From: Xanthocytophaga flava
Lineage (GTDB): Bacteria > Bacteroidota > Bacteroidia > Cytophagales > 172606-1
Direction: 5' to 3'
NCBI GenBank assembly: GCA_030068525.1
Contig: JASJOS010000033.1
Span: forward strand, 1-32,306
DNA: 32,306 bases
In this document: piece after piece, positions 10,740-28,906 of the stretch
How positions within the stretch are numbered: the stretch's first letter is position 1
Layout of the letters: each line of letters opens with the position of its first letter
The notes under the pieces: generated by a model
What the model was told of the DNA's origin: nothing
What the model saw: only the letters and a program-made list of their open reading frames with translations
The model's database searches: none
Translations under genes and position numbers: made by a program

Positions 10740-13436
10740 TTATGTCTGCAACCCCTCCGCTTCGCTTAGGATCTCCACATAGCCCGCTGTTCCATGTACC
10801 CGGATCCGTTGCCCGTCTTTGATGATGCGGGTTGCATTTTCCACGCCTACAACCGCTGGCAGACCATATTCACGTGCAATCACAGCGCCGTGCGTCATGA
10901 GTCCGCCCACTTCCGTGATCAGGCCTTTAATGGCAAAGAACAAAGGTGTCCAGCTGGGATCGGTAAAGGTGGTAACCAGGATATCGCCCTCTTCCAGATC
11001 AGCCTCTTCCACCTTCAGAATCACGCGTGCCCTGCCTTCCACGATGCCGGATGAAACCGCCAGACCCGCCAGCGAACCGGCAGGAACAGCTCCACGTTTG
11101 TACTGCCCGTTGAGGATCTCGCCCTCGGAGGTGATCACCCGTGGCGGTGTTAGCTTTTTGTACGTATGGTACGCTGCCTTGCGTTCATTGATAAGTGTGT
11201 AGTCCACTTTGCCGGTACGCACCACCTGCTGCAACTCTTCAAAACAGAGATAGTAGCTGTCTTCTTTTTTTTTGAGAACACCGGCTTCGGTAAGGCGTTT
11301 AGCTTCTTTCAACAACGCCTGCTTGTAAATGAAATACCGGCTAACGATGTCATATTTCGGATATTCACGGTAACCGATAAAGTTCCGCAGCAAGTCAATC
11401 ATCTGCCTGGTTTCGCTGGCTTTTTCTTCGCCGCCCGGTAATGGCTTTAGCCGTGTCAGCAACTCCTGCGCTTTGGCGAAAGCAGTCTGTTGTCCCTGCT
11501 CAAACCGCCGCCTGCTTTCTCCTGGCGGCAGGTTTTTAATGTTGGCAAGCAGCATCGGCAGCAGGATGCCTGGGTTTTCACTCCATCGCGTCCGGGTGAT
11601 GTCAATCTCACCGGCGCACCGCATCCCATATTTGTTCAGGTAGGCTGTGATCGCATCGTAAACCTTCTGCCCTCCTTCGAACGGAAGCAGTGCTTCCAGA
11701 AAGTCAGGGTCGTTGCTCTGCTGCAGATAAGCGATTATCTTCGGATAAGGACGTATGACATCTGCCAGATCCAGAAGGGCCAGGCCCATTTCCGACGTGA
11801 TGTTGTCAGGTGCCGAAAGGGTAAGTGTATCGGCCACGTTGGTTTCCCCCAGCCATTCGCTTATTTTCTCATTGATCCAGGCCGAAGCGTGAATGGCTGC
11901 CATGATCACGTTCAGATTTTTCGTTTCCGAAGACAGCTGTCGCCTGTGCTGCATATCCTGCAGGATATTCTCAAATACCTCCGGTCCTGTTTTGGCTGCG
12001 ATGTTTTCCCTGAGGGCTGCAATTGCGCTTTGGCTGCGTCCGATCAGATCAGCCACAATGCCCGGATCGTTTCCGGCTTCGGCCAGTATATCAGCCGCCG
12101 ACATGCCCTGATGGCCTTTCACGTGTCCGGGTATCGTAACGCCGGGGTCCTCCTTTACAAACTTCCGGTCGATAACAGTCAGCAGGCTATCTTTAATCAG
12201 CGGGTCTGAATGTCCTAACACATTTAACAGGTTTTCCCGGCCTGCGGGGGAGGCCAGTCCCCTGGTAATATCGACGAACAACCTCCCGCCAGCCGTTTTG
12301 AACATGGCCCGGTTTCCGGTCAGCATCCAGACGGACAATCCGAGCGGTTTAAAGGCATCGGTCATCATTTGCTGGTGTCCGACCGATACATAAACATGAT
12401 TTCCGTCCTCGTCAGCCTCCGGTACAGGATATAAGGTGGTGATCGGCCGGCTTTGTACCATATAGAATGTGTCATCCCTCAAACACCACTCAATGTCCTG
12501 TGGCTCCCCCAAATGCGCCTCGATCATTCTGCCGGTTTGCTCGAGTTGTAGTATCTGCGCATCTGTCAGCGCCTGGCTGTTCTGCTGCCCGGGTTCGATC
12601 TTCCACGCCTGTGTGCCACCGGCTTCCAAGGCACACACAGCCATTTGTTTAGTAGAGACTGTTTTCTCTATGATGCGGCCTTCTCTTACTTTATAATGGT
12701 CAGCATTGACCAGGCCTGACACCAGCGCCTCTCCCAGTCCGAAGCTTGCATCTATGGAAACTACCTTACGGCTGCCACTGATGGGATCTGCCGTAAAGAG
12801 AATGCCGGAAACCTGAGAAAAAACCATCCGCTGCACCACGACGGCTAATAAAACGTTACGGTGACCGAAGCCATTCTGCATCCGGTATATTATCGCCCGC
12901 TCTGTAAACAGGGAGGCCCAGCATTTGCGGATATGGCTTAAAATGGCATCACTACCGGTAACGTTTAAAAAGCTATCCTGCTGACCTGCAAAGGAGGCAC
13001 TGGCCAGATCCTCTGCGGTAGCGCTGGAACGCACCGCATACGCGTGTTTTCCGCCGTGCTGACCGATGCGGCTACGGACTTGATTTTCAAGTTCCTGCGG
13101 AATAGCCGTGGCTTCAATGCACATTCTGATCTTTGCGCCTATCTCACTGATCGCTTTCAGGTCCGATACGGTCAGACCTTCCAGCTGTTCAAGCAGTGCA
13201 ACAAACTCCGGCTGATGCGCAATCACGTCTTTAAAAGCCTCAGTCGTGACACAGAAACCTTCCGGCACGTTTAGCGCCGGGATCCGGGTTAATTCCGCAA
13301 GATTGGCGCCTTTGCCGCCAATCAACGCAACGGCCGACGGGCCGGCGTCTTTTAAATCCAATAGATATAAGCTCTTATTTTCCATATGATCTTGTTTTCC
13401 ATATGATCTTGTTTTCCATATGATCTTGTTTTCCAT
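10740..13436 (-). CDS. rph: Rifampicin phosphotransferase-like enzyme (PEP-synthase fold)
   Basis: This is a large dikinase-family enzyme of 898 residues from 13436, or 881 from the likely ancestral ATG at 13385 (MENKSLYLLDLK). The ATP-grasp part has GGKGANLAELTRI, RSSATAEDLASASFAGQQDS and DIEWCL. A middle domain (about 340-780) follows. The swivelling phosphohistidine domain comes last, GGLMTHGAVIARE with H849 (H832 from the shorter start), about 50 residues before the end. In PEP synthase and PPDK the histidine domain is followed by a PEP-binding barrel; here nothing follows. This order (ATP, substrate, His) is that of rifamycin phosphotransferases, which inactivate rifampicin using ATP. 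It lies directly downstream of a MarR gene. The start region consists of five 17-bp repeats, so the true start is uncertain. Confidence 0.82.
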   Translation of the reverse strand: MENKIIWKTRSYGKQDHMENKSLYLLDLKDAGPSAVALIGGKGANLAELTRIPALNVPEGFCVTTEAFKDVIAHQPEFVALLEQLEGLTVSDLKAISEIGAKIRMCIEATAIPQELENQVRSRIGQHGGKHAYAVRSSATAEDLASASFAGQQDSFLNVTGSDAILSHIRKCWASLFTERAIIYRMQNGFGHRNVLLAVVVQRMVFSQVSGILFTADPISGSRKVVSIDASFGLGEALVSGLVNADHYKVREGRIIEKTVSTKQMAVCALEAGGTQAWKIEPGQQNSQALTDAQILQLEQTGRMIEAHLGEPQDIEWCLRDDTFYMVQSRPITTLYPVPEADEDGNHVYVSVGHQQMMTDAFKPLGLSVWMLTGNRAMFKTAGGRLFVDITRGLASPAGRENLLNVLGHSDPLIKDSLLTVIDRKFVKEDPGVTIPGHVKGHQGMSAADILAEAGNDPGIVADLIGRSQSAIAALRENIAAKTGPEVFENILQDMQHRRQLSSETKNLNVIMAAIHASAWINEKISEWLGETNVADTLTLSAPDNITSEMGLALLDLADVIRPYPKIIAYLQQSNDPDFLEALLPFEGGQKVYDAITAYLNKYGMRCAGEIDITRTRWSENPGILLPMLLANIKNLPPGESRRRFEQGQQTAFAKAQELLTRLKPLPGGEEKASETRQMIDLLRNFIGYREYPKYDIVSRYFIYKQALLKEAKRLTEAGVLKKKEDSYYLCFEELQQVVRTGKVDYTLINERKAAYHTYKKLTPPRVITSEGEILNGQYKRGAVPAGSLAGLAVSSGIVEGRARVILKVEEADLEEGDILVTTFTDPSWTPLFFAIKGLITEVGGLMTHGAVIAREYGLPAVVGVENATRIIKDGQRIRVHGTAGYVEILSEAEGLQT

Positions 13437-13462
13437 ATGATCTTGTTTTCCATATGATCTTA
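13378..13462 (-). repeat. Five 17-bp tandem repeats carrying the rph start codon
   Basis: Five head-to-tail units (plus strand TTTTCCATATGATCTTG) begin at 13378, 13395, 13412, 13429 and 13446; the last differs at its final base. Each unit holds an ATGGAAAA start on the minus strand. Because 17 is not a multiple of 3, successive ATGs fall in different frames. In frame with the enzyme are 13385 and 13436 only. The ATG nearest the ribosome site (13453) is out of frame and would give a peptide of about 33 residues. Confidence 0.95.
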
Positions 13463-13915
13463 TTTATCCTTGAACTGGTTGGTGGTCTCAGTCATGAGTT
13501 CAATTGACCGTTGCAAAAACGTTTCGATGATCTCCAGATCCCGTTCTGTGAATGAACGGATCATTTCCTCCGAGCGGCTCCGGTAATCGGTATACAGCGG
13601 CGCGAGCAGTTTCATGATCTTGTCCGTATCAGGCACGACCATGACTTTCCTCCTGTCCTCCTTGGCAAATTCTCTTCTGACCAGTTCTTTTTTCTCGAAC
13701 CGGTCGATCAAACCCGTCACAGCGCCACTAGTCAGCCCCGTTACCTCGCCCAACTCTCCGGCAGTCATCGCCCCTTTTACCAGAAAAAAGCCCAGATACT
13801 TCTGGTCAGTACCGGATAGCCCTGCTTTTCGTGCAATGTTTTCATGCATCTGAATGGAAGTATAAGCGTACTGCTGGCTTAACTTTCTTACCCGGGTGAT
13901 GGCTTCGTGATTCAT
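13460..13915 (-). CDS. MarR-family transcriptional regulator
   Basis: The 151-residue protein has the MarR winged-helix layout: N-terminal helices (about 1-45), recognition region MTAGELGEVTGLTSGAVTGL (about 50-70), then the wing IDRFEKKELVRREFAKEDRR with the conserved D-RR, and C-terminal dimerisation helices. MarR proteins bind palindromes as dimers and usually release DNA on binding a small aromatic ligand. Its stop TAA lies inside the repeat array at the rph start, and AAGGAT within its last codons is the best ribosome site for the next gene. A perfect palindrome overlaps its own promoter (13936-13958), so autoregulation of the marR-rph transcript is likely. A rifamycin-like inducer is plausible but unproven. 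Confidence 0.88.
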   Translation of the reverse strand: MNHEAITRVRKLSQQYAYTSIQMHENIARKAGLSGTDQKYLGFFLVKGAMTAGELGEVTGLTSGAVTGLIDRFEKKELVRREFAKEDRRKVMVVPDTDKIMKLLAPLYTDYRSRSEEMIRSFTERDLEIIETFLQRSIELMTETTNQFKDK

Positions 13916-27710: not shown

Positions 27711-27908
27711 TTTTTTCTCATAAAAATCAGCCATTTTATTGAGTTAAAATCTCAAGAAGGCGTCCAGAGTGAGGAACAGAAACTATTTCAGTCCAGAATT
27801 GAAGAACAAGGCGGACACTACCACATCATCCGCAGTTATGAGGCATTCAAGCAATTGATCACGGCTATTCATACGCACACTATCACTAAAACATCATTAT
27901 CCATCTAA
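27711..27908 (+). pseudogene. VRR-NUC-like nuclease, C-terminal fragment
   Basis: The frame is open after a TAA at 27708-27710 and ends at 27906-27908 (65 codons). It reads HFIELKSQEGVQSEEQKLFQ, SRIEEQGGHYHIIRSYEAFK. The (I/F)ELK strand followed by G-QS-EQ--F and a later Y-(I/V)IRS is the C-terminal half of VRR-NUC (restriction-endonuclease-like) domains found in phages and mobile elements; the K is a catalytic position. The front with the remaining catalytic residues is gone, and no start codon is visible. It ends 13 nt before the 149-aa gene, so the two were probably one operon. Confidence 0.6.
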
Positions 27909-27921
27909 ACCCAACAACCCT

Positions 27922-28371
27922 ATGTATTCATTCAATGCTGAAGCTTACGAACAATACCAGCAAAGCTATAAATCATCCAACAACTTCTGGCGTAGAGCCT
28001 CAAAGGTGTATGAAAGTGCCTATACCCGTTTTCTGGAATGGACCCTGGAACATGCCGACCCCAACAAAGGTCCTATCAAGAATTCAGCCAGTGCCAAAAA
28101 TCGCCGATATGCCAACATGCTCTACGACTTTTTCCAGTCAAAGGGACTGATGATTAGCATATCCGGTACACTGGCAAACAAACAGGCAGTCTATACCTAT
28201 CAGATTCAACAGGATAGCAACACTAATTATCAGCTCACCGATTTGGCAGCCCTGGAATGTAACCGAACCTATACCACCCGATTCGAGGCCGAAACAGCCG
28301 CCTTTAAACAAGCCTTCATTGTACTCGATCAGTGGCTGGATGATCAGGAAGGCTTTGGCATCCGACTATAA
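27922..28371 (+). CDS. Unknown 149-aa protein, likely mobile-element cargo
   Basis: This is a hydrophilic, mostly helical protein rich in Tyr, Gln and Asn. It starts MYSFNAEAYEQYQQSYKSSN and has a basic patch NSASAKNRRYANMLYDFF and an acidic end (LDQWLDDQEGFGIRL). There is no signal peptide, membrane segment or metal motif, and I do not recognise the family. It begins 13 nt after the VRR-NUC remnant. It is followed by a 28-bp-period repeat array and an XRE-type HTH frame on the same strand, so these probably form one accessory unit (phage-, plasmid- or ICE-derived). Codon use is G+C-richer than its left neighbour. The gene looks intact. Confidence 0.65.
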   Translation: MYSFNAEAYEQYQQSYKSSNNFWRRASKVYESAYTRFLEWTLEHADPNKGPIKNSASAKNRRYANMLYDFFQSKGLMISISGTLANKQAVYTYQIQQDSNTNYQLTDLAALECNRTYTTRFEAETAAFKQAFIVLDQWLDDQEGFGIRL

Positions 28372-28402
28372 CCAGCTTACAAGAGGCCTGTAGCTAGCAA
28401 GC

Positions 28403-28626
28403 TTGCGCATAGTTCTATGCAATCCCTGTCTTGCCGTGACTTCCGCTCAAGAAATGTTTTGCGGTGAGTTATGCGCAGGACATCCTTTGCCGTGAACTAT
28501 ACGCACGATGGGTCTTGCAGTGAACTCACGGCAAAATAAAATCTGCCGTGAGTTATGATCAAAACGCTTTTTTCGGGGGGCGACTACACAGACCCTATTT
28601 AGGAGCCGTGCCATGAATTATGCGCA
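28403..28626 (+). repeat. Iteron-like array with exact 28-bp period
   Basis: Copies of a roughly 19-bp motif, TTGCCGTGARTTATGCGCA, start at 28403 (degenerate), 28431, 28459, 28487, 28515 and 28543, each 28 bp apart, with about 9 bp of unrelated sequence between. A further copy out of phase lies at about 28608. The copy at 28515 is extended to a near-palindrome, TTGCAGTGAACTCACGGCAA. The array fills the gap between the 149-aa gene and the XRE frame. Fixed spacing with variable filler suggests protein binding sites on one DNA face spacing, as in plasmid iterons, operators or partition sites. Confidence 0.75.
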
Positions 28627-28642
28627 AAGCTCGTAACAATAG

Positions 28643-28906
28643 ACAGTCAGTATCTTTAACCTTAACTATACGAACTTACAACAGATAGGCGAACGTATCC
28701 GCTATGTACGTACCGAAATAACCGGACTTCCTCAACGCGAATTTGTCCAACGCATGGGACTAGGCCAAAGCAACATTTCCCAGTTGGAAAAAGGCCAGAG
28801 CCTGCCCAGTTGCTTCTTTCTGTATACGATGCATATCACCCATCAGGTAAACCTGAACTGGCTGATGACAGGGAGCGGACAGGTACTGGAAGATAATATT
28901 GAGTAG
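28643..28906 (+). CDS. XRE-family HTH regulator, start codon unclear
   Basis: The frame is open from a TAG at 28640-28642 to the stop at 28904-28906 (87 codons). It reads LQQIGERIRYVRTEITGLPQ, REFVQRMGLGQSNISQLEKG and ends LNWLMTGSGQVLEDNIE. This is a complete XRE/Cro-type helix-turn-helix (recognition helix QSNISQLEKG) with the NLNWL-TG-G ending common in phage-type repressors. No ATG, GTG or TTG lies before the domain; the first ATG falls inside the HTH. Either a rare ATT/ATC-class start is used, the 5' end was lost, or a frame disruption lies upstream. It follows the 28-bp array directly, a natural set of binding sites for it. Confidence 0.65.
   Translation, partial: TVSIFNLNYTNLQQIGERIRYVRTEITGLPQREFVQRMGLGQSNISQLEKGQSLPSCFFLYTMHITHQVNLNWLMTGSGQVLEDNIE

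Follow-up and report, generated by a model that had tools for sequence, protein, structure and literature searches.

The window, by which we mean the whole 32,306-nucleotide stretch of Xanthocytophaga flava DNA analysed here, carries an array of 18-bp dyads between a 149-aa open reading frame (p149) and a frame for an XRE protein resembling the 434 repressor (Table 1). We refer to the genome from which it comes (9.49 Mb) as G000 and to that of a sister species in the same genus as G002.

Table 1. Features of the array locus in the window
Feature	Position	Strand	Basis
VRR-NUC-like gene, 3' remnant of an island gene	27711..27908	+	homology, 27711-27875
p149, 149-aa ORF	27922..28371	+	ORF call; paralogs in G000 and G002 only, among the genomes searched
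Class I array, seven 18-bp dyads	28404..28626	+	direct coordinates, dyad scan, family HMM
Dyad starts	28404, 28432, 28460, 28488, 28516, 28544 (28-bp lattice), then 28609
47-bp non-repeat gap giving the off-lattice 65-bp step	28562..28608	.	aligns with the gap in other copies
XRE (434-like) frame, probably a remnant	28643..28906	+	homology from 28673

The window 18-mers are spaced 28 bp apart five times and then by a single step of 65 bp. An earlier note on this DNA had reported 19-mers starting at 28403, 28431, 28459, 28487, 28515 and 28543 and again at about 28608, and all seven starts were confirmed when the coordinates were rechecked. Lag 28 is the top self-match lag across positions 28372-28665 and is equalled by none of 5,000 shuffles. 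The seven dyads compare with a mean of 0.10 in 200 shuffles, a comparison that is partly circular as the PWM seeds came from these arrays. The dyads mostly have TGC...GCA ends with unlike halves (symmetry 3-7 of 9), and the first copy, described in the note as degenerate, is an inverted-type unit rather than simply a degenerate one.

The flanking genes named in the note are also present, with the VRR-NUC remnant and p149 to the left and an HTH frame, here lacking a start codon, to the right. Positions 27711-27875 of the VRR-NUC remnant match residues 57-111 of a 115-aa paralog at 78%. The XRE frame has no ATG, GTG or TTG upstream of its recognition helix and is therefore probably a remnant as well. 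The window module consists of these three frames and the array only, and outside it the best G002 matches of the window are 67% and 74% identical. With its truncated VRR-NUC gene and its XRE without a start codon, the window copy is what is left of a decayed island. The p149 protein gave no match in Pfam or PHROG, nor in phage and plasmid sequences, and an alignment-backed search of related loci confirmed no relative. A single-sequence AlphaFold model of p149 was uninformative (mean pLDDT 44.9).

XRE paralogs and six classes of array

The XRE gene has 19 matches in G000. We examined 22 XRE loci. Of these, 13 are in G000, where six of the 19 matches (four fragments and two proteins of greater length) were set aside, and the other nine are among those of G002, in which a DNA search indicates at least this number. 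An array on a 28-bp lattice lies upstream of the XRE gene in 18 of the 22, each with 5-10 detected dyads, and the distance from the end of the array to the XRE start is 28-69 bp. The motifs form six classes, which pair with six classes of XRE recognition helix (Table 2).

Table 2. Motif classes of the XRE-linked arrays (consensus strings are our own summaries of the detected units; helices were located by alignment to the 434 repressor)
Class	Consensus	Loci	Recognition helix
I	TGCSGTGARTTATGCGCA	5	LGQSNIS[QA]L
II	TGCGGTNNATTNNACGCA	4	INQSNIS[TI][LM]
III	TGACCGGAACTCCGGTCA	5	VAQGNLSSL
IV	TAACCGTAACTCCGGTTA	2	TAQGNLSSL
V	TGAACNGCATACNGTTCA	1	MGQGNISKV
VI	TGATAGGTATAGTGATCA	1 (weakest)	IAQSHISKV

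The helices of classes III and IV are almost identical, and their inner motifs are similar. Every XRE-linked array contains one off-lattice step, of 39, 41, 65, 67, 69, 70 or 95 bp. The last window copy, which the note had set aside as out of phase, is thus no stray, as one such step of 28n+9 to 28n+14 bp occurs in 18 of 18 XRE-linked arrays.

Because the motif seeds came from these same loci, we added a motif-free lag test. Lag 28 was top in 12 of the 22 upstream regions and first or second in 18, and either lag 28 or lag 56 was top in 17. In the control, where the tally covers lag 28 alone, this lag was top in 5 of 400 stretches. The fixed lattice under six different motifs points to a binding protein of changed specificity.

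No array was found upstream of the other four XRE loci (C33, its G002 ortholog, C11 and C44b). C33 and its ortholog have nearly the class I helix and yet are array-less, which counts against a simple helix-motif rule. Furthermore, the covariation of XRE and array arises in part because the two are adjacent and hence co-inherited.

Over residues 6-74, the XRE protein can be aligned to the 434 repressor's DNA-binding domain (E 4e-5, PDB matches). As with that repressor, a 434-type HTH protein has dyad sites, here putative operators, beside its own gene. Phage 434 has few operators, whereas the arrays described here have 5-10 units at a fixed 28-bp pitch. The -7-like promoter word TAnnTTTR was seen within 75 bases before the XRE start in only 3 of the 22 loci.

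The note had proposed searching for the motif across relatives. It occurs in G000 and G002 and nowhere else among the 39 genomes searched (G000 and 38 relatives), being absent from a third species of the genus whose genome is 72% complete. The exact 19-mer gave 15 single matches in scattered taxa among named genomes, where the chance estimate is also 15, and none in viral contigs. XRE relatives at E<=1e-6 were absent from five of six other genomes of the family, and the sixth had one weak match (36%). Among the open-licence PMC papers listed, in searches partly aimed at known systems, we recognised no description of such arrays.

Islands carrying p149 and the XRE-linked arrays

The two genomes contain 11 p149 genes. 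At each of the seven close ones, including that of the window, p149 and XRE are separated by an array. The remaining four are C9 and C11 of G000 and the G002 counterparts of these two. The two from G000 were examined; no XRE lies close to C9, and the XRE at C11 is array-less.

Most p149 islands carry helicase, primase/VapE, VRR-NUC and amidase genes. The fullest order, at L209, is an AlpA-like HTH gene, a DEAD-type helicase, BT4734-like and VapE primase-helicase genes, VRR-NUC, p149, the array, XRE, p138, p84 and an amidase. Matches at this locus include HTH_17/AlpA (E 2.6e-10 and 1.2e-5) and, for the primase, phrog_15962 (E 4.7e-91), so that L209 has both the AlpA-like regulator and the primase-helicase module by which PICIs and phage satellites are recognised. 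No integrase was found among the part of the island ORFs that was scanned. Other island loci have cargo between XRE and p138, and some have a 135-aa ORF before p149. Class III loci have different replication-region genes.

The cargo between XRE and p138 is in some cases of defence type, with an McrBC pair at L210 (4006-7088), a KAP NTPase with a Roco protein at L211 (2754-7184) and an AAA_21 ATPase, for which the best PADLOC match is AriAB, at L214 (12409-14022). XRE 3' ends truncated at their 5' side lie among the cargo genes downstream of the intact XRE at L053 (9790-9833, 7176-7289, 6583-6635 and 5168-5238), and further such ends are found at L219 (14393-14448, 10711-10792, 9054-9277, 7318-7679 and 3239-3315). 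These displaced ends would be explained by repeated exchange of cargo at the 3' end of XRE. RAYT-like (Y1_Tnp) genes or fragments occur at L053 (10706-11302), L219 (7014-7602 and 8559-9167) and, in G000, at C61:228525-229120 and C33:171911-172117; those in L053 and L219 adjoin XRE genes or XRE 3' fragments.

The available text of PMC6092414 describes PICI origins as two repeat sets beside replication genes, and the island arrays resemble these in having two blocks of repeats by replication genes with an AlpA-like gene in the same island. In a PICI origin the two sets would flank an AT-rich stretch and be bound by the initiator; of this layout, the two blocks are seen here. An iteron origin of a PICI-like satellite, in which a replication initiator would sit on the units and the two sets would lie 3' of the replication module, is consistent with an array placed directly after the replication genes and with the AlpA-like, helicase and primase genes of the islands. 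However, the motif class follows the XRE and not the replication protein, because the same class is found with either VapE or Rep385 and similar VapE proteins are found with different classes. Class I arrays stand with VapE/p149 at C5 and G2_C8a but with the unrelated Rep385 at C2 and G2_C16; the VapE proteins of C5 and C62 are 82% identical and their arrays belong to classes I and II; and Rep385 islands have an array of class I, IV or VI or none. The islands also differ from PICIs in the dispersed gene-less copies and may differ in having no integrase, none being found among the ORFs scanned, and dozens of chromosomal arrays without replication genes are not what an origin would predict. We therefore regard this explanation as unlikely. 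The note's proposal, that a small mobile element uses the array as operator or origin, agrees with the related island loci, but the motif is also dispersed and the window locus is a worn remnant. The association with XRE proved closer than the note could tell.

Dispersed arrays and their change between two genomes

Allowing up to two mismatches, the 19-mer occurs 79 times in the 9.49-Mb genome and not at all in the control. A DNA search of G000 with one full copy gave at least 46 matches (40 of 131 candidates scored). We built a class I family HMM of 272 positions from 20 copies. The window, whose copy was among these 20, matches it at 28396-28628 with E 4.5e-47. The HMM matches 47 of the 48 G000 loci examined with E below 1e-16, and the 48th, C5, has a more divergent array. 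Among the 47 loci of the family, the highest score belongs to the array of the intact XRE locus at C2. About 45 other G000 loci carry the class I motif without the p149/XRE gene context. The note had held that such genome-wide occurrence would mark an ordinary intergenic repeat, and this is borne out in part, yet island arrays also exist; the class I array is both an island array and a dispersed repeat. A purely local iteron array of one small element is ruled out by the genome-wide copies. The filler had been called unrelated between copies, and it does differ between units within one array, but both the filler and the 47-bp gap align across dispersed loci. Because they align between independent loci, a CRISPR-like array was rejected.

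Gene-less class I arrays sit near gene 3' ends. In G000, 17 arrays lie between convergent genes, 21 between tandem genes and one between divergent genes (39 scored), against 17, 92 and 33 for the other neighbouring gene pairs at the same loci (convergent versus divergent, p=1.3e-5). The G002 counts are 12, 24 and one against 18, 91 and 29 (p=0.001), all these counts resting on mechanical ORFs of at least 100 aa in two genomes that are not independent. The two genomes agree in that class I arrays avoid divergent promoters. The idea that the dispersed arrays were left behind by islands since deleted was rejected, as 14 island proteins gave no match at 103 dispersed-array loci except for one VRR-NUC fragment at L155.

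Other classes are dispersed to differing extents. A class III array search gave at least 37 matches in G000 and at least 38 in G002 (40 candidates scored out of 64 and 63, respectively). These group into at least 23 and at least 28 distinct places, and the weakest places have a single short match each. Of 30 class III loci fetched, 25 lack an XRE match within the stretch of about 3.2 kb examined, and 13 lie between convergent, 12 between tandem and two between divergent genes, with three unscored. The commonest class III spacings are 28 (135 times), 56 (33), 57 (13), 39 (10), 95 (10) and 67 (6). Within 0.79 Mb of scanned DNA, chains of three or more class IV units occur in five places, one of them a class III locus, and no such chains of class V or VI were found; class II chains overlap the class I family in part. 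Gene-less dispersed arrays thus belong to classes I and III, with a few of class IV.

We followed 40 of the 47 G000 loci, each with about 7 kb of surroundings, into G002. In total 31 of the 40 are shared, 25 of them paired at the first comparison and six more after a second search. The 15 G000 copies partnerless at first were all sought in G002. Five sites proved clearly occupied (L163, L173, L174, L181 and L185). Only a weak partial array remains at L158, counted among the 31 pairs, and at L177, counted as a weak remnant. At L196 roughly 210 bp have been lost in an internal collapse. At L195 the two flanking genes are the same, but the sequence between them differs and holds a trace of the array. 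At L170, L171, L172, L187 and L194, five of the 40 loci, synteny is broken at the array, which suggests rearrangement breakpoints; the neighbours there resemble, by eye, ordinary chromosomal genes. L189 was placed in none of these groups. As none of the 15 loci gave a clean empty site in G002, fresh transposition of class I copies was rejected.

Indels of whole units (27-29 or 56 bp) occur in 13 of the 31 ortholog pairs, and other indels of eight bases or more in five further pairs. Substitution rates were taken from 27 pairs, after four below 84% identity were dropped. Whole units show 7.2% substitutions, with no significant difference from filler (8.4%) or flank (6.4%), where the flanks include coding sequence and the filler rates are inflated by misalignment. 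By column, the conserved positions are slower (rho -0.44; 3.2% in the top quartile and 12.2% in the lowest), although this measure is partly circular as some of these copies also went into the model. The dyad ends change more slowly (3.6%) than filler (9.4%, p=6e-8) and flank (6.5%, p=0.001), whereas positions inside the units change at a rate no different from that of filler (p=0.17). In the 12 indel-free pairs the dyad ends (3.4%) are again below filler (6.7%, p=0.036) but do not differ from flank (3.7%).

REP elements, in the available text of PMC3733652, are extragenic, lie between convergent or unidirectional genes and consist of a short palindrome tagged at one end with GTAG or CGTC. The class I family shares with REPs and RAYTs its dispersed extragenic position, its placement relative to neighbouring genes and the presence of RAYT-like genes in G000. 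Selfish REP- or MITE-like repeats that by chance lie next to some XRE genes would explain the gene-less copies near gene ends, the RAYT-like genes in islands, the gain and loss of whole units and the closeness of whole-unit substitution rates to those of the flanks. Such repeats would leave unexplained the unrelated motifs on the same 28-bp lattice at other XRE paralogs. The strict lattice and the motif classes tied to adjacent XRE genes are unlike REPs, no GTAG, CGTC or complement is seen by eye in the 272-base consensus of class I, the one class inspected, and the lack of a clean empty site also argues against mobile repeats. We consider this explanation rather improbable.

A putative repressor-operator system

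We slightly favour a model where the arrays are cooperative operator arrays of 434-like XRE repressors from satellite-like islands, the XRE proteins being the binders that we infer from helix and motif pairing. One XRE dimer would occupy each 18-bp dyad, giving dimers every 28 bp, and the off-lattice step would set two blocks of dimers apart by about one extra helical turn. The home array would lie in the island control region, between the replication module and xre, and once filled would repress xre and the genes beyond, providing autoregulation. The XRE would also occupy, in trans, the gene-less arrays of its class near gene 3' ends, and these may act as roadblocks or insulators. The window array could remain a target of the class I XRE proteins from C2 or C5. 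Besides the pairing of motif and helix classes, points in favour of the model are the 434-like fold region of XRE, the top family score of the array at the intact C2 locus, the slower change of dyad ends than of filler and the scarcity of class I arrays at divergent promoters. Points against the operator model are the weak symmetry of many dyads, the whole-unit rates that are not below those of filler or flank, and the 4 of 22 XRE loci that are array-less.

The combination of long, regular arrays in two blocks ahead of a small HTH gene with many chromosomal sites also resembles partition or chromosome-organising sites. The arrays would then be centromere-like or organising sites bound by XRE or p149. 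Several motif classes in one chromosome are, however, unexpected for a single organiser, and no partition NTPase was found among the part of the island ORFs scanned, which makes this a very improbable explanation.

For the operator model, the nearest functional analogy is the stoperator system. As described in the available text of PMC6550527, the stoperators of Cluster A mycobacteriophages are 13-bp sites spread across the phage genome and oriented with transcription, one repressor using many dispersed sites besides its own operator and each repressor type having a distinct consensus. The arrays would likewise offer dispersed sites beyond a home array, with one consensus per class of putatively binding XRE. 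They differ in that their sites are 18-bp dyads, grouped on a lattice and scattered over a bacterial chromosome in which several classes coexist, rather than single 13-bp sites mostly in one orientation, and G000 arrays beside tandem genes are mixed in orientation (13 and 9). By analogy with a stoperator system, in which the repressor at its dispersed sites blocks elongation, the dispersed arrays are perhaps stoperator-like roadblocks.

A bolder model, which we put forward tentatively, is that one genus maintains several parallel repressor networks. Each island XRE would have its own 18-bp code, set out in two-block 28-bp-lattice arrays beside its own gene, and some classes would repeat theirs at dozens of gene-less sites where genes end. 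The code would have changed through six classes with the lattice fixed, so that spacing rather than sequence is conserved, as might be expected of a nucleoprotein filament serving to insulate transcription or to protect the cell from further islands.

If the operator model is right, these loci provide a natural series of repressor/operator pairs inside single genomes, in which the code has repeatedly changed and the geometry has been kept, and specificity switching, cooperative spacing and long-range repression become directly testable. Satellite-like islands, some with defence-type cargo, would then be linked to binding sites throughout the chromosome, and a testable function could be assigned to one family of dispersed extragenic repeats.

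Elsewhere in the window, positions 13373-13465 hold 5.5 copies of a 17-bp tandem repeat (97% match) that overlaps the 5' end of an 898-aa ORF on the minus strand.
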